Origin: Turicibacter sanguinis
GTDB taxonomy: Bacteria > Bacillota_I > Bacilli_A > MOL361 > Turicibacteraceae
DNA length: 64,000 bases
Assembly (NCBI RefSeq): GCF_013046825.1
Contig: NZ_CP053187.1
Coordinates: forward strand, 2,638,001-2,702,000
Direction: 5' to 3'
Within the stretch, counting starts at the first letter, position 1, and every line of letters starts with the position of its first letter. Below, one piece after another: positions 2,512 to 48,421 of this stretch. The position numbers and the translations under genes were made by a program. Under the pieces are notes generated by a model. The model made no database searches, was not told the origin of the DNA, and was given only the letters and a program-made list of their open reading frames with translations.

Positions 2512-3855
2512 TTATCGCCCCATTGCTTCATCCATAATTCTTGGCATTTCTTTAATAACTTTTTCAGCCGCTTCTTGTGGTGTCATTGTTCCAAACACGA
2601 CAGCCTCTCCTGCACCTTCATATAAATCTTTTACATCTGTGTATTCAAAGAATGGATGCATGATTGTTGATTCAATATTTGAGTGCATATTGTAAGCCTC
2701 TACCGTTACACCAGTTAATAATCCTTTATCAACTAAAATATCATATCCAGCTTGGTTAGCAGGAATTCCACGTTGAGTTCCCATGATTTCAACTGCTTTT
2801 TCATCTGTTAACATCCAGTTTAAGAATTTTGCAACTTCTTCAGGATTTTGAGCATTTTTACTAATTGCAAATCCCATTGAAGGTTTTTGAATATTACCAG
2901 TTAATTTTGCTCCATCCATTGTGAATTGAGCGAACGGTTCTACTACTTGACCTTCTTCTAACGTATCAATGTATTTAGCGGCACTTGAATCCCACTCATT
3001 AATTCCACCGTATTCTCCAGTGATCCATTTTGGATTTTTCTCATCTAATTCATTTGAATCAACATTTCCAGCAGGCATTACATGATTTTCAACCATGTCT
3101 GCTAATAATTGATATCCAGCTGTTAATTCTTCAACTGAGTATTGAATGTTTCCATCAGTATCAAAGAATGTTTTCCCTGTTTCTTGCTCTAAGTAACTGA
3201 AGACTAAATACATCATTCCTGCTTTTCCTAATTTACTTAGTGCGTAGTAGTTATCTCCTAATGATGATTGAATTGCTTTACCAGCATCCATTAATTCGTC
3301 CCAAGTTGTTGGAATGTCGACTCCAGCATTTGAGTAAAGCGTTGTATTTAAGAATGGTACACGAGCGGTAATACTTGTTGGAATAGCTTGAAGTTTATTT
3401 TCAATTGTCATTGCATCTAATAAAGATGAATTATAGTTTCCTAATTCTAAATTAGATAACGTATTTAAATCGTAGAACCCATCACCATCTGGTGAGTAAA
3501 TCCATAACCAGTTGTAGTTTACTTGCATTAAATCTGCATTTGTTCCCCCTGCATATTGCGTTGTAAATTTATCTTGAAATCCAGACCAAGCCGCATATTC
3601 AGGTATGATTGTAACGTGTGGATTTTCCTCCATGTACAATTCAATCACCTCTAATGTCGCCGCATGACGTGAATCTCCTCCCCACCAAGAGAAACGGAAT
3701 GATACTGGATCATTTGATTCAGTTGTTGTCCCCTCTTGTGTTGTTGATGATTCTGGTGTTGTTGTTGAACCGTTATCTTTTGCTTCGTTCCCTGAACAAG
3801 CCACTAATGTTGCAGCACAAGCAAAAACAGTTGCTAAAGACCATATTTTTTTCAC
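2512..3855 (-). CDS. Extracellular solute-binding lipoprotein, family 1 (sugar)
   Basis: 447 residues. A lipoprotein signal ends in LVAC with the lipid-bearing Cys at 20, then a Ser/Thr-rich linker (about 25-50), then the two-lobed family 1 fold, including the typical stretch near residue 110 where the ligand cleft is built. It captures an oligosaccharide outside the cell and hands it to the two permeases encoded directly downstream. The GH105 hydrolase at the end of the cluster suggests a pectin or rhamnogalacturonan fragment (inference). The AGGGAGGG-type ribosome site ahead of the ATG is strong. This is the first gene of the operon. Confidence 0.93.
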   Translation of the reverse strand: MKKIWSLATVFACAATLVACSGNEAKDNGSTTTPESSTTQEGTTTESNDPVSFRFSWWGGDSRHAATLEVIELYMEENPHVTIIPEYAAWSGFQDKFTTQYAGGTNADLMQVNYNWLWIYSPDGDGFYDLNTLSNLELGNYNSSLLDAMTIENKLQAIPTSITARVPFLNTTLYSNAGVDIPTTWDELMDAGKAIQSSLGDNYYALSKLGKAGMMYLVFSYLEQETGKTFFDTDGNIQYSVEELTAGYQLLADMVENHVMPAGNVDSNELDEKNPKWITGEYGGINEWDSSAAKYIDTLEEGQVVEPFAQFTMDGAKLTGNIQKPSMGFAISKNAQNPEEVAKFLNWMLTDEKAVEIMGTQRGIPANQAGYDILVDKGLLTGVTVEAYNMHSNIESTIMHPFFEYTDVKDLYEGAGEAVVFGTMTPQEAAEKVIKEMPRIMDEAMGR

Positions 3856-7772: not shown

Positions 7773-7801
7773 AGTTTACTTTGATTGTCGAATGTTGTCA
7801 A
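7773..7801 (-). promoter_or_regulatory. Sigma-A promoter of nhaC
   Basis: TTGACA (7796-7801) and TAAACT (7773-7778) on the minus strand are 17 bp apart. A second pair, TTGACT and TAAAAT, lies about 40 bp further upstream and could be an additional promoter. Confidence 0.6.
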
Positions 7802-7940
7802 CTATTTAGAACATCATTTTACATAACTTCTTTACATTTAGTCAAAAAAACTCATTTCTTTCGACAAAAATTCCGATACTTTCACTACTCATATAAGATA
7901 TAGTAAAGAAAACGTTTATAAATGTAGGAGAGACATAATA

Positions 7941-8576
7941 ATGAGTGTAAAGCAAGTAATCTTAGGCCGACTTAACTCCATTGAGCGGGAAGGAATGGAA
8001 GACCTAATAAAATTTCTAAATAAAAGTGATTACTTCCTTGCACCTGCTAGTGTAAGGGGGCATTGTAATTATCCATATGGATTAGCCATCCATAGTCATA
8101 ACGTTGTTGAATTACTAATCGAAAAAAACAAACGATTCCATCTAGGATTAACACTTGAAAGTATCTACTTAGCAGGCTATTTACATGATTTATGTAAAGT
8201 GAATATTTTCAAACCCGTTTTAAAACTTCGATACAATCAAAAAAATGAAAAAGAATGCTACTTCACCTATGACTGCATCGATGATTTTCCTCTCGGTCAT
8301 GGAGAAAAAAGCGTCATTATTGCGCAGCAATATATTCGTCTAACACTTGAGGAAATTTTATTAATCAGATGGCATACAGGACCCGCTACACCTTGTGAAA
8401 ATACTTACCGATACGATCAAGCATTAAAAATATGCCCTGCTATCAAAGCGATTTTTACCGCTGATGAAGAAGCAGCAACCTTCTTAGAAAAAATTAAAGA
8501 ACCTCAAGTCTATCAACTAAGTGTCTATTATGCTTGGAAAAAAACAGGTATTCTACCTAAAAATCTATTACATTGA
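7941..8576 (+). CDS. HD-domain phosphohydrolase
   Basis: 211 residues. Metal-binding residues of the HD superfamily are visible: H51 and H53 (HSHN), H82-D83 (LHDLCK), H120 (LGHGEKS) and H145 (RWHTGP). This order resembles the HD part of YhaM-type 3'-5' exoribonucleases and related nucleotide hydrolases, but there is no OB-fold in front, so the substrate cannot be named. It is the only plus-strand gene in this part, stands alone, and has an AGGAG site ten bases upstream and its own terminator. Confidence 0.75.
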   Translation: MSVKQVILGRLNSIEREGMEDLIKFLNKSDYFLAPASVRGHCNYPYGLAIHSHNVVELLIEKNKRFHLGLTLESIYLAGYLHDLCKVNIFKPVLKLRYNQKNEKECYFTYDCIDDFPLGHGEKSVIIAQQYIRLTLEEILLIRWHTGPATPCENTYRYDQALKICPAIKAIFTADEEAATFLEKIKEPQVYQLSVYYAWKKTGILPKNLLH

Positions 8577-9114: not shown

Positions 9115-9945
9115 TTAAATAAAAGGATTATAAAAGCGCGTTCCATTAGAAAAGGTAATAACTAAAAAAATGGCCATTAAAACGCTAAATCCTACAAGTG
9201 TATAAGTATCTCGCTTTAAAAACGGACGTTCAGAATAAAAGGTGCGTTTTTTATGTTTACCGAATGCCCTTAATTCCATCGCATAGCTGATTGTTTCAAT
9301 ACGATCTAAACTAGTCAAAATAAGAGGCATTAAAATGGCAGACGTATTTTTAAGACGAACCCATAATGTTGCCTTGCTAGACATATCAATTCCACGCGCT
9401 TGCTGAGCTTGAGAAATCTCAACAAAATCACGTTGAATATCTGGAATATAACGCATAGCAATCGCAACAGAATAAGCCAGTCGATAACTAATTCCAATTT
9501 TGGATAGTGACGCTGCAAATTCACTTGGATCAGTTGCTGATAAGAAGACTAAACCAAGGGGAATAATCGTTAAGTACTTCAAGGTCATATTAAATTGATA
9601 AAATAATTGTTCCTGCGTTAAGACATACGGTCCAAATAATTTAAACAAATCATGCTGTGTTCCGTAAATATGAACGCCTTCAACTGGGGAAAAAATAAAG
9701 ACCGCTATATTATTGATAACTAAGAAAATTAAAATAAAATAAAAGACGAGCGCCACTTGTTTAAATTCAACTTTTGATAGCTTAAATAAAATTAAACTGA
9801 TGATAAACATCATCCCAAGAACACGCGTATCATAACTTAACATCGCCGTGATAGACCAAAGTAAAAAGCAAATTAGCTTCGTACTCCCTGTTAAACGGTG
9901 TATGGGTGAATCCACATCAATATAAGCAAGCATTTTAGTATTCAT
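9115..9945 (-). CDS. ecfT: Energy-coupling factor transporter transmembrane protein EcfT
   Basis: 276 residues with about five membrane helices. The cytoplasmic coupling motifs carry QQARGIDM (ARG at 183-185) and MELRAFG (RAFG at 226-229), the two Ala-Arg-Gly-type signatures by which EcfT docks on the ATPases. It transmits ATP hydrolysis to a substrate-binding S-component. Its ATG overlaps the end of the fused ATPase gene by one base, so the two are one operon. The S-component encoded at 11862-12416 is the likely partner. Confidence 0.9.
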   Translation of the reverse strand: MNTKMLAYIDVDSPIHRLTGSTKLICFLLWSITAMLSYDTRVLGMMFIISLILFKLSKVEFKQVALVFYFILIFLVINNIAVFIFSPVEGVHIYGTQHDLFKLFGPYVLTQEQLFYQFNMTLKYLTIIPLGLVFLSATDPSEFAASLSKIGISYRLAYSVAIAMRYIPDIQRDFVEISQAQQARGIDMSSKATLWVRLKNTSAILMPLILTSLDRIETISYAMELRAFGKHKKRTFYSERPFLKRDTYTLVGFSVLMAIFLVITFSNGTRFYNPFI

Positions 9946-11648
9946 TAAGTTCTCACCGCCTTATCTGCAAAAATAAATTTTCGAATAAAGTCCACCGCAC
10001 TCGGAAGTCCTGTCTGCATGGCCAGTTGATAAAGTGATGTTTTCTTTAAATGAGAGGCTTCAATCAGTTGATCGTCAGTTAAAACATGCCACGTTGACGT
10101 ATCAGCTAACACTTCCCCATTTGTAATCACAATAGCACGAGTTGTGTATTCAAGCATTAAATGCATGTCATGTGTAATCATTAAAATGGTAATGCCACGT
10201 TGATTAAGTTCGACTAAAAACTCCATAATTTCGGTGTAATGACGTAAATCTTGTCCGGCAGTTGGCTCATCTAAAATTAAAAGTTCTGGATTTAAAACCA
10301 AAATAGCTGCAATACTTACACGTTTTTTCTGACCAAAGCTTAAAGCTGAAATCGGCCAATTACGATATGGATAAAGACCACAGATTTTTAATGTTTCAAT
10401 CACACGTTCCTGAACTTCTGTTTCTGATATCCCACGAACACGAAGTCCAAGAGCCACTTCATCAAAAATTTTTGTCTTTGAAATCATCTGATTCGGATTT
10501 TGCATCACAAGCCCTATCTTATCTGCTCGTTCCTTAATCGTTTGAGTTCCCATATCTTCGCCATTCAATAAAATCGTTCCTGAAATCGGTTGATAAAATC
10601 CACTAATCAACTTTGAAATTGTTGATTTTCCTGCGCCATTTTTTCCAACTAAACTCAACATTTCACCTTTACGAATTTGGAATGAGACATCCTTTAAGGT
10701 TAAGCTATCAGATTGATAACCAAAACAAACTTTCTTAAACTCAAGCAAAATGTCTTCCTGATTTCGTTCTTTTTGAATTTCCGTCTGATCATACCAACGA
10801 TGAAGTGCCTCTTGACATCTTGATAAATCCATTTGATTTAAAGATTGTGGATTCATACTCGCTAAAATCTCGCAATTTGCGTATTTTAACGCTGTCACAT
10901 ATAAAGGTTCGCGAATTCCAATTTGAGATAAAAGATTTGAGGCTAATAACTCATTTGGTGTCATATCAGCAATAATACAACCTTCATTCATTACAATAAT
11001 TCGATCAATGCATGCCTGTAAAACGTCTTCTAAACGATGCTCAATAATCACAATCGTTTTATGCGTTTTTCTTGAAATTTCATCAATTAATGACATTGTC
11101 TGCTCTCCAGCTGCTGGGTCTAAATTGGCTAATGGTTCATCAAATAATAAAATATCAATATCATCCACCATAACACCGGCAAGCGTAACACGTTGCTTTT
11201 GTCCGCCTGATAATTCGTGTGGAGCAGATTTTAAATGCGTCTTGATATCAACAAGTGTAGAGACTTCATTCACAATTGACTTCATTTCAGCTTGTGGCAC
11301 TTCTAAATTTTCAAGTTTAAACGCAATATCCTCTCCTACCGTTAAGCCAATAAATTGGTCATCGGGATTTTGAAGAACTGTCCCTACATAATTAGATCGT
11401 TTAAACAGATTATGCTTTAGAGCATTTTCACCTTTAATTTTAAGATTTCCACTTAACTGACCTTTATAAATATTAGGCACTAATCCATTAATACAATGAG
11501 CTAACGTACTTTTCCCAGAACCAGAAGGCCCAACGATTAAAACCTTTTCACCTTCATAAATACACAAATTTATATTTTTAAGGGTTGGACTTGACTGCAC
11601 ACGATATTGAAAACTAAAATTTTCAAATTCAATCATCGGTTTTCGCAT
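9945..11648 (-). CDS. ECF transporter ATPase, two fused nucleotide-binding domains (YkoD-like)
   Basis: About 567 residues holding two complete ABC ATPase domains in one chain. Domain 1 has GPSGSGKST (near residue 40) and LSGGQKQR; domain 2 has GKNGAGKST (near 335) and LSFGQKKR, in which Phe replaces the second Gly of the usual LSGGQ. It replaces the separate EcfA1/EcfA2 pair. Fused ATPases of this size are typically found beside UPF0397 S-components, as here. I chose the ATG at 11648 because GAAAGG (11658-11663) lies nine bases upstream; ATGs at 11654 and 11657 are too close to it. Confidence 0.9.
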   Translation of the reverse strand: MRKPMIEFENFSFQYRVQSSPTLKNINLCIYEGEKVLIVGPSGSGKSTLAHCINGLVPNIYKGQLSGNLKIKGENALKHNLFKRSNYVGTVLQNPDDQFIGLTVGEDIAFKLENLEVPQAEMKSIVNEVSTLVDIKTHLKSAPHELSGGQKQRVTLAGVMVDDIDILLFDEPLANLDPAAGEQTMSLIDEISRKTHKTIVIIEHRLEDVLQACIDRIIVMNEGCIIADMTPNELLASNLLSQIGIREPLYVTALKYANCEILASMNPQSLNQMDLSRCQEALHRWYDQTEIQKERNQEDILLEFKKVCFGYQSDSLTLKDVSFQIRKGEMLSLVGKNGAGKSTISKLISGFYQPISGTILLNGEDMGTQTIKERADKIGLVMQNPNQMISKTKIFDEVALGLRVRGISETEVQERVIETLKICGLYPYRNWPISALSFGQKKRVSIAAILVLNPELLILDEPTAGQDLRHYTEIMEFLVELNQRGITILMITHDMHLMLEYTTRAIVITNGEVLADTSTWHVLTDDQLIEASHLKKTSLYQLAMQTGLPSAVDFIRKFIFADKAVRT

Positions 11649-11680
11649 TCTCATCATCCTTTCTTTTCACGCGACAAAAA

Positions 11681-11739
11681 ATTAGATGAATTAAAATCAA
11701 TCTAACAAATTTGTTATCATTCTTTTTAATTCACCTAAT
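11681..11739 (-). promoter_or_regulatory. Leader hairpin of the ecf ATPase gene, possible attenuator
   Basis: In the transcript, attaggtgaattaaaa (11739-11724) pairs over 16 positions with the segment 11696-11681, with a single G-U pair. The 27-base loop contains the palindrome aacaaatttgtt. Six T residues follow the 3' arm directly, so it has the form of an intrinsic terminator lying between promoter and start codon. No known riboswitch class was recognised. Confidence 0.45.
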
Positions 11740-11762
11740 CTCGATTTTTATTTAACTTCAAT

Positions 11763-11792
11763 ATTATAACACAAATTTTATAAAACAGACAA
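11763..11792 (-). promoter_or_regulatory. Sigma-A promoter of the ecf ATPase-ecfT operon
   Basis: TTGTCT (11787-11792) and TATAAT (11763-11768) on the minus strand with an 18-bp spacer. Transcription would start near 11756, giving a leader of about 100 nt. Confidence 0.65.
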
Positions 11793-11816
11793 ACTTCGAC
11801 AATGTTTTTTATGTAA

Positions 11817-11852
11817 AAAAAGCATCTGATAACGCTTCTTCAGATGCTTTTT
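11817..11852 (-). terminator. Terminator of the UPF0397 gene
   Basis: A 13-bp stem (11817-11829 with 11840-11852), ten bases beyond the stop codon, with A and T tracts on both sides. Confidence 0.85.
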
Positions 11853-11861
11853 AACTAAGGA

Positions 11862-12416
11862 TTAATATTCAGGTTTTAAACTTCCCTTTGGGGTACGTGT
11901 TTTTGCATAAGCCCCAACTAATAAAGAACCTAAAATTCCAATCGTAATCATGTTAAACGATCCCGCAACCGCTCCTTGAAGATAAACTTTATCTGACGGT
12001 TCAGCATAAATCAATACGTCAAGCATCGGTGCTACAATAAACCATCCGACGATATTTGCCGCGATTTGAGCTAGGTTAAAGATAATGATTTCTCGTTTGC
12101 CAAAGATACCATCTTCCATGTCAATTCGTTTGGCTAGTAATCCAATCACAAGTCCAATCATTCCTGAGGCAATAATCCAACTAAACCATGGACTTCCCCA
12201 AATTAAAATATCTTTTAAAAAGTGACCAATAAGCCCTGTTGCTAACCCAGCCATTGGACCATATAATAATGCAATTAAAGCTAAGACAGCATAAGCTGTT
12301 TCAAAGTTTGTATTTGGAATTCCGGTTGGTAATGAGGCAAAACGCGATAAAACGACAAAAATGGCAGCTCCAATCCCAATCGCAACGACCGTTTTAATTG
12401 ATAGTCTTTGATTCAT
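11862..12416 (-). CDS. ECF transporter S-component, UPF0397 family
   Basis: 184 residues from the ATG at 12416. It begins with the family signature [20 protein letters not shown] and continues with PTGIPNTN and the C-terminal [11 protein letters not shown], giving five to six membrane helices. UPF0397 proteins are substrate-capture subunits of ECF importers and are often annotated for riboflavin; the true vitamin is not fixed by sequence. The frame is open further upstream, but I reject longer starts: GGGAG at 12426-12430 is spaced correctly for 12416, and the upstream part lies on the promoter. It is transcribed separately from the ATPase-ecfT pair. Confidence 0.88.
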
Positions 12417-45529: not shown

Positions 45530-48151
45530 TTATAAATTATTTTTTAACCATTCATCGACATTCTTTAATGCCTCTTCAATTTTTGTTGCATCTTTAGCGC
45601 CGGCTTGAGCCATATCTGGGCGTCCGCCTCCGCCTCCACCACAAATCGTTGCGACTTCTTTAACAATTTTCCCTGCATGTACCCCTTGTTTCACATAATC
45701 TGGCGTTACACCACAAGAGATTGCAACCTTACCATCTACTGCACTTGCTAACACAATAACTGCCGATGATAACTGTTGTTTAAATTCGTCAACCATTTGA
45801 CGTAAATGGTTCATATCCACATCAACTAAGTTCGCAGTTAACACTGTAATTCCTGCTACCTCACGTGTATTATTAACAATTTCCTTCATTTTTAAATGAG
45901 ATAATTTAGATTTTAATGAATCATTTTCACGATGCGCTTCTTTTAACTCATCTAAAATCCCTTCAACACGTTCTTCAAGTAATGCTGGTTTTGTTTTTAA
46001 TGTCTCAGATACCGCTGCAAATCGTTCAATAAATGAATTCATGTATTGATAAGCTCCCTTACCCGTCACCGCTTCAATACGTCGAGTTCCAGCTCCAATT
46101 CCTGATTCTGAAATGATTTTAAATAAACCAATTTCAGAGGTGTTTGAAACATGACATCCACCACAAAGCTCAATGCTATAGTCTCCTGCTTTGACAACGC
46201 GTACCGTTTCACCATATTTTTCACTAAATAACGCCATTGCTCCCATTTGCTTTGCTTCTTCAATACTTTTTTCAAACACTTCAACTGGAATAGAAGCCCA
46301 AATCTTCTCGTTAACAATCGCTTCAATACGTTGTAATTCTTCTGACGTCAACCCTTGCATGTTGGTGAAGTCAAAACGTAAACGATCAGCAGATACTAAT
46401 GATCCAGCTTGGTTTGCATGCGCACCAATAACATCTTTTAATGCTTGGTGTAATAAGTGAGTCGCTGTATGATTTTTTGTTAAATCTAAACGATTCTCAA
46501 CTTGAACTTGGCAAACAACCTCATCATTTAATGATAATGTTCCGTCTACTTGTACACTGTGTAAATGCTGTCCATTTGGAGCTTTGATAACATCTGTTAC
46601 CATCACATTTGCAGCAGAGGTTGTCATCATCCCTGTATCTGCTACTTGTCCTCCACTTTCAGCATAAAATGGAGTAGTATCTAAAATGACTTGTCCAGCT
46701 CCAGTTAATGAATCAACCACTTCCCCATTTTGTAGTAATAAAATAACGTTTGATGTTGTTGATAATTGATGATATCCTACAAATTTAGAAGGGGTTTTAA
46801 AGCTCATTAAAGCAGCATTCTGTGAATGCATACTTTCAACATCTTCACGAGCATTACGAGCACGTTCACGTTGTGCTTCCATTTGGGCATCGAACCCTTC
46901 TTTATCAACTGTAAATCCAGCTTCTTCTGCATATTCTAAAGTTAATTCATATGGGAATCCGTACGTATCATATAACATGAATGCGTCTTTGCCACTAATT
47001 GTTTTATCTTCACATTTAGCAATTAAATCCGTCAAGATTTTTTCTCCATCTGCTAATGTTTGACGGAAGCGATCTTCTTCAGATTTAATCACTTTTTGAA
47101 CTAACTCAATTTTATCGCAAACATATGGGTAATAATCTTTCATAATATCTGCTACAACAGGAACTAATTCATACATGAAAGCACGATCAATTCCTAATTT
47201 TTTTCCATAACGAACAGCACGACGTAATAAACGGCGTAAGACGTATCCGCGTCCTTCATTAGAAAGAAGTGCTCCATCTGCTACTGCAAAAGTTACCGTA
47301 CGAACATGGTCAGCGATCACTTTAAATGCCGTTGCTGTTTCTTGTGTATATTTTACACCAGACATTTCTTCCGTCGCACGAATGATTGGCATGAATAAGT
47401 CTGTGTCAAAGTTTGTTTCAACGCCTTGAATCACACAAGCCATACGCTCAAGACCCATTCCAGTATCTATATTTTTATTTGGTAACATAGGATATTCACT
47501 ACGATCTAATCCTTCTTTTGAATTATATTGAGAAAATACAATGTTCCAAATTTCAATATAACGATCATTTTCAATATCTTCTTCTAATAAACGGATTCCA
47601 ATATTTTCTGGATCATATTTTGTTCCACGATCATAGAAAATTTCAGTGTTTGGTCCACATGGTCCTTCTCCGATTTCCCAGAAGTTATATTCTAATTTCA
47701 CAATGTGATCAGGCGAAACACCTAATTTGATCCATAAATCATATGTTTCTTGATCGGTTGGATAAACGGTTACATATAATAATTCTTTATCGAATCCAAA
47801 CCATTCTTTTGATGTTAATAATTCCCATCCCCATGTCACTGCCTCTTCACGGAAATAGTCTCCAATCGAGAAGTTTCCTAACATCTCGAAGAACGTATGA
47901 TGGCGAGCCGTTTTCCCAACATTTTCAATATCGTTTGTACGAATTGATTTTTGAGCATTTGTAATACGTGGGTTATTTGGAATTTCACGTCCATCAAAGT
48001 ATTTTTTTAAAGCTGCAACCCCACTATTAATCCATAATAATGAAGGGTCATTAATTGGAACTAATGGTGCTCCTGGTTCGATCATGTGTCCTTTTGATTT
48101 AAAGAAATTTAAGTACATTGAACGAATCTCTGATCCTGTCATGTATTTCAT
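45530..48151 (-). CDS. alaS: Alanyl-tRNA synthetase AlaS
   Basis: 873 residues, full length. The class II core opens with [19 protein letters not shown] and contains [14 protein letters not shown]; the editing domain has HTATHLLHQ and CGGCHVS; the C-terminal C-Ala domain ends near [17 protein letters not shown]. It charges tRNA-Ala. GAGGTG lies six bases before the ATG at 48151. Expression is set by the T-box leader immediately upstream. Confidence 0.96.
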
Positions 48152-48177: not shown

Positions 48178-48405
48178 ATAAAAAAAGCCCTTATTTGATA
48201 TAAGGACGTATTGAACGCGGTACCACCTTAATTTTGTTTTTTAAGTAAACTAAAAAAACAACTCTTTGAAACAGATAACGGCGAAAACCGACAGACTTTA
48301 ACTGTACTCCAGAAGTAGCTTTCGAGCATTGATTGTTAGGATTTATCTCAGCCAAGAAATCCCTCTCTGTGAAACGTTCAATTTTCTACTTTCTTCTATC
48401 AACAT
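48178..48405 (-). promoter_or_regulatory. T-box riboswitch of alaS
   Basis: The T-box sequence AAGGTGGTACCGCG lies at 48216-48229 (minus strand) and is followed by the terminator stem gtccttat (48207-48200) with ataagggc (48194-48187) and seven T residues. Stem I carries the specifier GCT (48317-48319), an alanine codon, in GAAAGCTAC, and AGAGGG at its base side. Uncharged tRNA-Ala would bind the specifier and T-box and prevent termination. Confidence 0.93.
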
Positions 48406-48421
48406 TTTGTTATTCGACTCT

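Follow-up and report, generated by a model that had tools for sequence, protein, structure and literature searches.

We analysed a stretch of 64,000 nucleotides of Turicibacter sanguinis DNA, here called the window, which carries on its minus strand the genes of an ECF transporter. Profile matches identified a fused two-domain ECF ATPase of 570 aa (ecfA, 9945 to 11657; TIGR04520 and PF00005) and, abutting it, an EcfT protein of the CbiQ family (9115 to 9945; PF02361). The gene upstream of ecfA encodes an S component (11862 to 12416; PF07155 and NF010182) that is named for riboflavin by its family. Directly 3′ of the S gene, a terminator-like hairpin with a T-run (11813 to 11853; z −4.67 for a 56-nt stretch) separates it from the ecfA leader. 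The promoter ahead of this leader (11763 to 11792) has the −35 box TTGTCT, a spacer of 18 nt, the −10 box TATAAT at 11768 to 11763, and a TG ahead of the −10 box. Transcription would start near 7 nt past the −10 box, about 12 to 18 nt 5′ of a 59-nt hairpin (11681 to 11739) that was recovered by fold prediction, repeat finder and alignment. Its outer stem has 15 to 16 pairs and its inner stem is weaker. The arms, at 11724 to 11739 and 11681 to 11696, form 16 pairs including one G·U, and a 14-bp palindrome (TAACAAATTTGTTA) lies within the hairpin. Six T's (11676 to 11681) close the stem, the first of them inside it. The ribosome binding site AGAAAGG (11658 to 11664) is unpaired in the predicted fold and stays free at 10 to 16 nt from the hairpin; by eye, an ecfA ATG at 11648 has the better spacing from this site.

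The leader was predicted to fold into a single hairpin. Folding energies were −22.6 kcal/mol for a 118-nt leader RNA (z −3.24) and −20.4 kcal/mol for a 71-nt RNA (z −5.99), with none of 200 shuffles as low in either case; for the 100 nt between the assumed start and the SD the z value was −4.25, and none of 500 shuffles was as low. Sequence and fold thus agree with the sequence-only reading, which had described the hairpin, T-run, promoter, ribosome site and ECF operon, and had remarked that little leader precedes the stem. At the hairpin the plus strand folds less well than the minus strand, and no plus-strand gene ending nearby appears on a crude gene map. The repeat finder listed 22 inverted repeats in the 64 kb, the leader hairpin being I8. 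When those of −15 kcal/mol or better were compared by eye with the crude gene map, I8 alone sat in a 5′ leader and not just behind the 3′ end of a gene, and three others fell within called ORFs.

To follow the leader in related species we used a genus set of five genomes, all with the ATPase, in which G000 is the genome of the window and G001 to G004 are its sisters; three further genomes of the family gave no ATPase match at E 1e-120. All five genus genomes can be aligned at the promoter and at the ribosome site, and in the leader alignment TGTTATAATA at the ecfA promoter shows no differences among the five. The stretch ahead of the promoter aligns poorly by eye, and the stretch between promoter and ribosome site does not align across all five. 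In G004 and G001, the same 59 positions as the window hairpin align free of gaps, giving minus-strand hairpins of equal length with largely shared pairing (L009:3228-3286 in G004 and L010:3230-3288 in G001). The leader fold had a z of −3.38 in G004 and of −3.71 in G001, where of 500 shuffles each one folded as well for G004 and none for G001, and the ribosome site is unpaired in all three predicted folds. The hairpin was not found in the other two of the four sister species, whose leaders folded no better than shuffles (z 0.73 for G002 and −0.04 for G003). The leader hairpin is a real, partly conserved element of the 5′ UTR. As to the T-run, the 59 positions are followed by GAGTAAG in G004 and GATTAAA in G001, so that a U-run after the conserved stem occurs in one of the three hairpin-bearing species, that of the window. 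The G003 leader forms another, weak stem with ATTTTTT after it, as read from the fold by eye. In a small tree G004 grouped with G001 and G002 with G003, while G000 stood apart. On this topology a single gain or a single loss of the hairpin would suffice, and the order of events is not settled by the support of only 0.744 for the branch joining G002 and G003 to the outgroups.

We then compared the pairing across the three hairpin sequences. Eighteen of 24 consensus pairs are intact in all three; 12 of these are invariant, 4 have changed on one side, and 2 have changed on both sides (UA, AU and GC at columns 3/57; AU, GC and GU at columns 10/50). Each of the remaining 6 pairs is broken in one sequence. 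This compensatory change in G004 and G001 is what a check of the stem on relatives' leaders, suggested by the sequence-only reading, brought out in the species that keep it. With 5 to 6 substitutions per comparison, 15 of the 15 outer pairs stand in G000, 14 in G004 and 15 in G001. When equal numbers of substitutions were scattered randomly over the outer stem, the P values for retaining as many pairs were 0.00035 to 0.019 across the six directed comparisons; this null is simple and purpose-made, the stem was picked from the same sequences, and relatedness is uncorrected. Sliding the partner columns by 1 to 3 positions lowered pairing from 91.7% to 38 to 51%. A column shuffle of 500 rounds was a weak control on the pairing: the five observed measures were reached by 51, 97, 51, 214 and 51 rounds, among them percentage paired and the covariation score by 51 each, double-change pairs by 97 and further pair types by 214. 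Selection on the structure is therefore likely rather than proved.

A covariance model built from the three hairpins matched strongly once in each of G000, G001 and G004 (73 to 84 bits), plus the reverse strand of that match, when 150 of 657 to 1678 first-look candidates were scored per genome. Neither G002 nor G003 gave a strong match, the best (E 0.0037) lying elsewhere in G002. In the window's own genome no second good copy was found. The hairpin looks to be single copy, and we rejected it as a repeat or mobile element. Across 85 sources the next best match had an E value of 0.36 (window 45891 to 45956), and against the 80 best named orthologous loci among the matches listed the top E value was 1.1. 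Because the hairpin was not found in G002, G003 or these 80 loci, it would seem dispensable for the operon.

The sequence-only reading had recognised no known riboswitch, and an Rfam scan bore this out: at gathering score there was no match in the leader or in the genus loci (L001 and L009 to L012). At a permissive threshold, weak matches appeared in the 401 bases around the leader, the best being RF02449 on the opposite strand (25.3 of 60 bits, E 0.17); RF00516, the ylbH leader, overlapped the hairpin end on the leader strand (15.3 of 50 bits, E 0.63). We rejected a known riboswitch on these grounds. The sole gathering-score match in the window was an unrelated T-box leader at 48199 to 48411 (104.8 bits), which precedes a minus-strand gene whose first residues resemble alanyl-tRNA synthetase by eye. 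We also rejected a leader peptide: a 7-codon ORF noticed by eye in the window hairpin is not matched by one of equal frame and length in G004 or G001, where an ATG in the hairpin opens longer frames, that of G001 in frame with ecfA, and by eye no ribosome site is apparent. Among the papers that a literature search listed, we found nothing on the ecfA-ecfT leader.

The orthologous operons bear on what the transporter carries. In the best 80 named loci among the matches listed, EcfT was matched in all 80 and an upstream S protein in 79, the remaining locus (L062) having only 161 bases upstream. In the 53 of these that were scanned with Rfam, 5 loci (L018, L023, L033, L043 and L069) have a SAM riboswitch (RF00162) upstream of the S gene and 19 have a T-box (RF00230) there, all 19 from Bacillus-like genera by title; 24 loci thus have one or the other, and in the remaining 29 neither reaches gathering score. 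The L018 S protein is 62% identical to that of the window, and both belong to NF010182. The one T-box examined of the 19, in L028, has by eye the specifier AUG, for methionine. Between this T-box and the S gene lies another gene (L028:1524-2399) that matches the (R)-S-adenosyl-methionine hydrolase model below curated cut-offs. SAM riboswitches and T-boxes before orthologous S genes mean that the name riboflavin transporter may mislead, and they suggest that it is wrong for this branch. A methionine-related substrate, rather than a vitamin, is a fair inference, and the vitamin uptake proposed by the sequence-only reading is accordingly uncertain. A methionine ECF S component, MtsT, is known; its name had no hit in the papers listed by a literature search. 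In the genus loci themselves (L001 and L009 to L012, of which L012 starts just ahead of the S gene and shows nothing further upstream) we found neither a SAM riboswitch nor a T-box. The window leader resembles the SAM and T-box leaders in being a leader RNA of an S-EcfAA'-EcfT operon. It differs from them in that they are sensor RNAs ahead of the S gene (separated from it by a further gene in L028), whereas it is a single plain hairpin ahead of ecfA with no gathering-score Rfam match. Two of the named loci have other repeats in the gap between S and ecfA, both seen by eye and both with ecfA at 3001: L022 has tandem short repeats (units with ATGAGCGAATT) in a gap of 290 nt, and L021 has, in a gap of 432 nt, an inverted repeat of about 200 bases that resembles a small non-coding mobile element.

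The arrangement of hairpin and T-run had been read from the sequence of the window as that of an attenuator, in which the two stop transcription unless a protein or small-molecule signal prevents it. The T's do follow the stem directly in the window, and the orthologous operons bear attenuating leaders, T-box or SAM, upstream of the S gene. The likeness to an intrinsic terminator, however, ends with stem and T-run, since this stem lies in a leader, is AT-rich with G-C at only 2 of its 15 outer pairs, and stands without a U-run in both sisters that keep it. The 12 to 18 nt or so of leader upstream of the stem would not accommodate an aptamer, Rfam offers only the weak matches given above, and the best competing helix seen by eye is of 6 bp. 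A simple consensus terminator scan did not list the leader hairpin, which counts little because the same scan also missed the terminator-like hairpin 3′ of the S gene. With no U-run in either hairpin-keeping sister and no antiterminator seen by eye, a conserved attenuator is not supported, and we consider regulated attenuation unlikely. Given the weak stem with ATTTTTT in G003, termination may occur in some species, even though the fold of that leader is no more stable than those of its shuffles. What stands of the sequence-only reading is thus the hairpin and its setting, and not the attenuator. A terminator-like look in a single genome can mislead, as two relatives here have retained the stem but have no U-run.

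It would seem equally improbable that the two arms are an operator in DNA, bound by a dimeric repressor or activator just 3′ of the start site. They do form an inverted repeat, by eye they share a consensus of about AGRTGARTTAAAA in the three species, and their centres are about 42 bp apart, or four helical turns. The changes within them nevertheless agree more with pairing than with a fixed recognition sequence, as the arms change together in all three species at columns 3/57 and go from A-U to G-C or G·U at columns 10/50. A distance of 27 bp between arms is also unusual for a single dimer, and no second copy was seen in the genome, hence no regulon. A long conserved leader stem could also set ecfA-ecfT expression as a processing site, cut by RNase III or a different enzyme specific for double strands, or as the binding site of an RNA-binding protein; we hold this to be quite doubtful for a hairpin of which we found no relatives outside three species. 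That the inverted repeat arose by chance and has no function strikes us as having a similarly slim likelihood. The region is AT-rich, the hairpin was not found in two of four sister species, and the column-shuffle control is weak; against this, the pairing has survived substitutions in G004 and G001, each with S and EcfT proteins 77% identical to the window's, while alignment by eye is poor ahead of the promoter, and no shuffle among 500 folds as well as the window leader.

The hairpin has probably been selected for its pairing, in part of one genus, and the explanation we prefer, at about an even chance, is that it is a clade-specific 5′-UTR stem-loop of the ecfA-ecfT mRNA that acts as an mRNA protector. 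Such protection increases as the stem comes closer to the 5′ end. The stem would act like the 5′ stem-loop of the Bacillus subtilis aprE leader and hinder RNA decay that depends on the 5′ end, and with slower decay the long transporter message would persist longer; in this species the T-run may add some weak termination. For the aprE leader, a 5′ stem-loop is reported to stabilise mRNA in Firmicutes (Hambraeus 2002, cited in PMC7509114 and in the references of PMC3997798). The two leaders are alike in having a 5′-proximal stem-loop and a single-stranded ribosome site downstream, and probably in a Firmicute host. The likeness noted is one of arrangement, and the stem here would lie about 12 to 18 nt from the 5′ end. 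A stable 5′-UTR stem, a free ribosome site and kept pairing occur together in three of the five genus genomes, taking the start as placed from the −10 box. If the stem is a stabiliser or the target of a protein, it would be a small case of a clade with its own promoter and leader for an ECF energising module, without SAM or T-box leaders.

A further site at the promoter is TTGTCGAA (11795 to 11802, minus strand), which by motif match contains TGTCGAA, the core of the Spo0A box as given in PMC3485338. This 8-mer or its reverse complement is present at the ecfA promoter in all five genus genomes. In the other four it stands in reverse orientation (TTCGACAA), nearer the −10 box and in the same place within 2 nt, whereas that of the window lies further upstream in the opposite orientation. 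It occurs in 2 of 79 of the best named loci, in which we searched the 300 nt before S in all 79 and the gap between S and ecfA where it exceeded 60 nt. The window genome encodes the Spo0A C-terminal domain (PF08769, 2.4e-45). The exact box was found in none of 10 stretches ahead of expected Spo0A targets, namely spoIIGA and a spoIIE-like gene; for spoIIGA of G000 the stretch stopped within the promoter region, and the spoIIE-like genes were below the family cut-off. Nor is the box enriched in the window, with 6 copies of the 8-mer against 4.03 expected and 10 of the 7-mer against 10.11. Spo0A control of the ecfA promoter is at this point an unproved lead. It is a long shot that a clade-specific hairpin, read by a protein, replaced SAM or T-box control of a methionine-related ECF transporter, uncoupling the ATPase and EcfT from the S component, and was joined to sporulation through the Spo0A box. 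Elsewhere in the window, at 7785 to 7867, two TTGTCGAA sites, one on the plus and one on the minus strand, lie about 75 bp apart, with TTGTCAA after the first. They precede a gene (7941 to 8576) with a weak HD-domain match below cut-off, and this stretch is another candidate for a Spo0A-controlled promoter.
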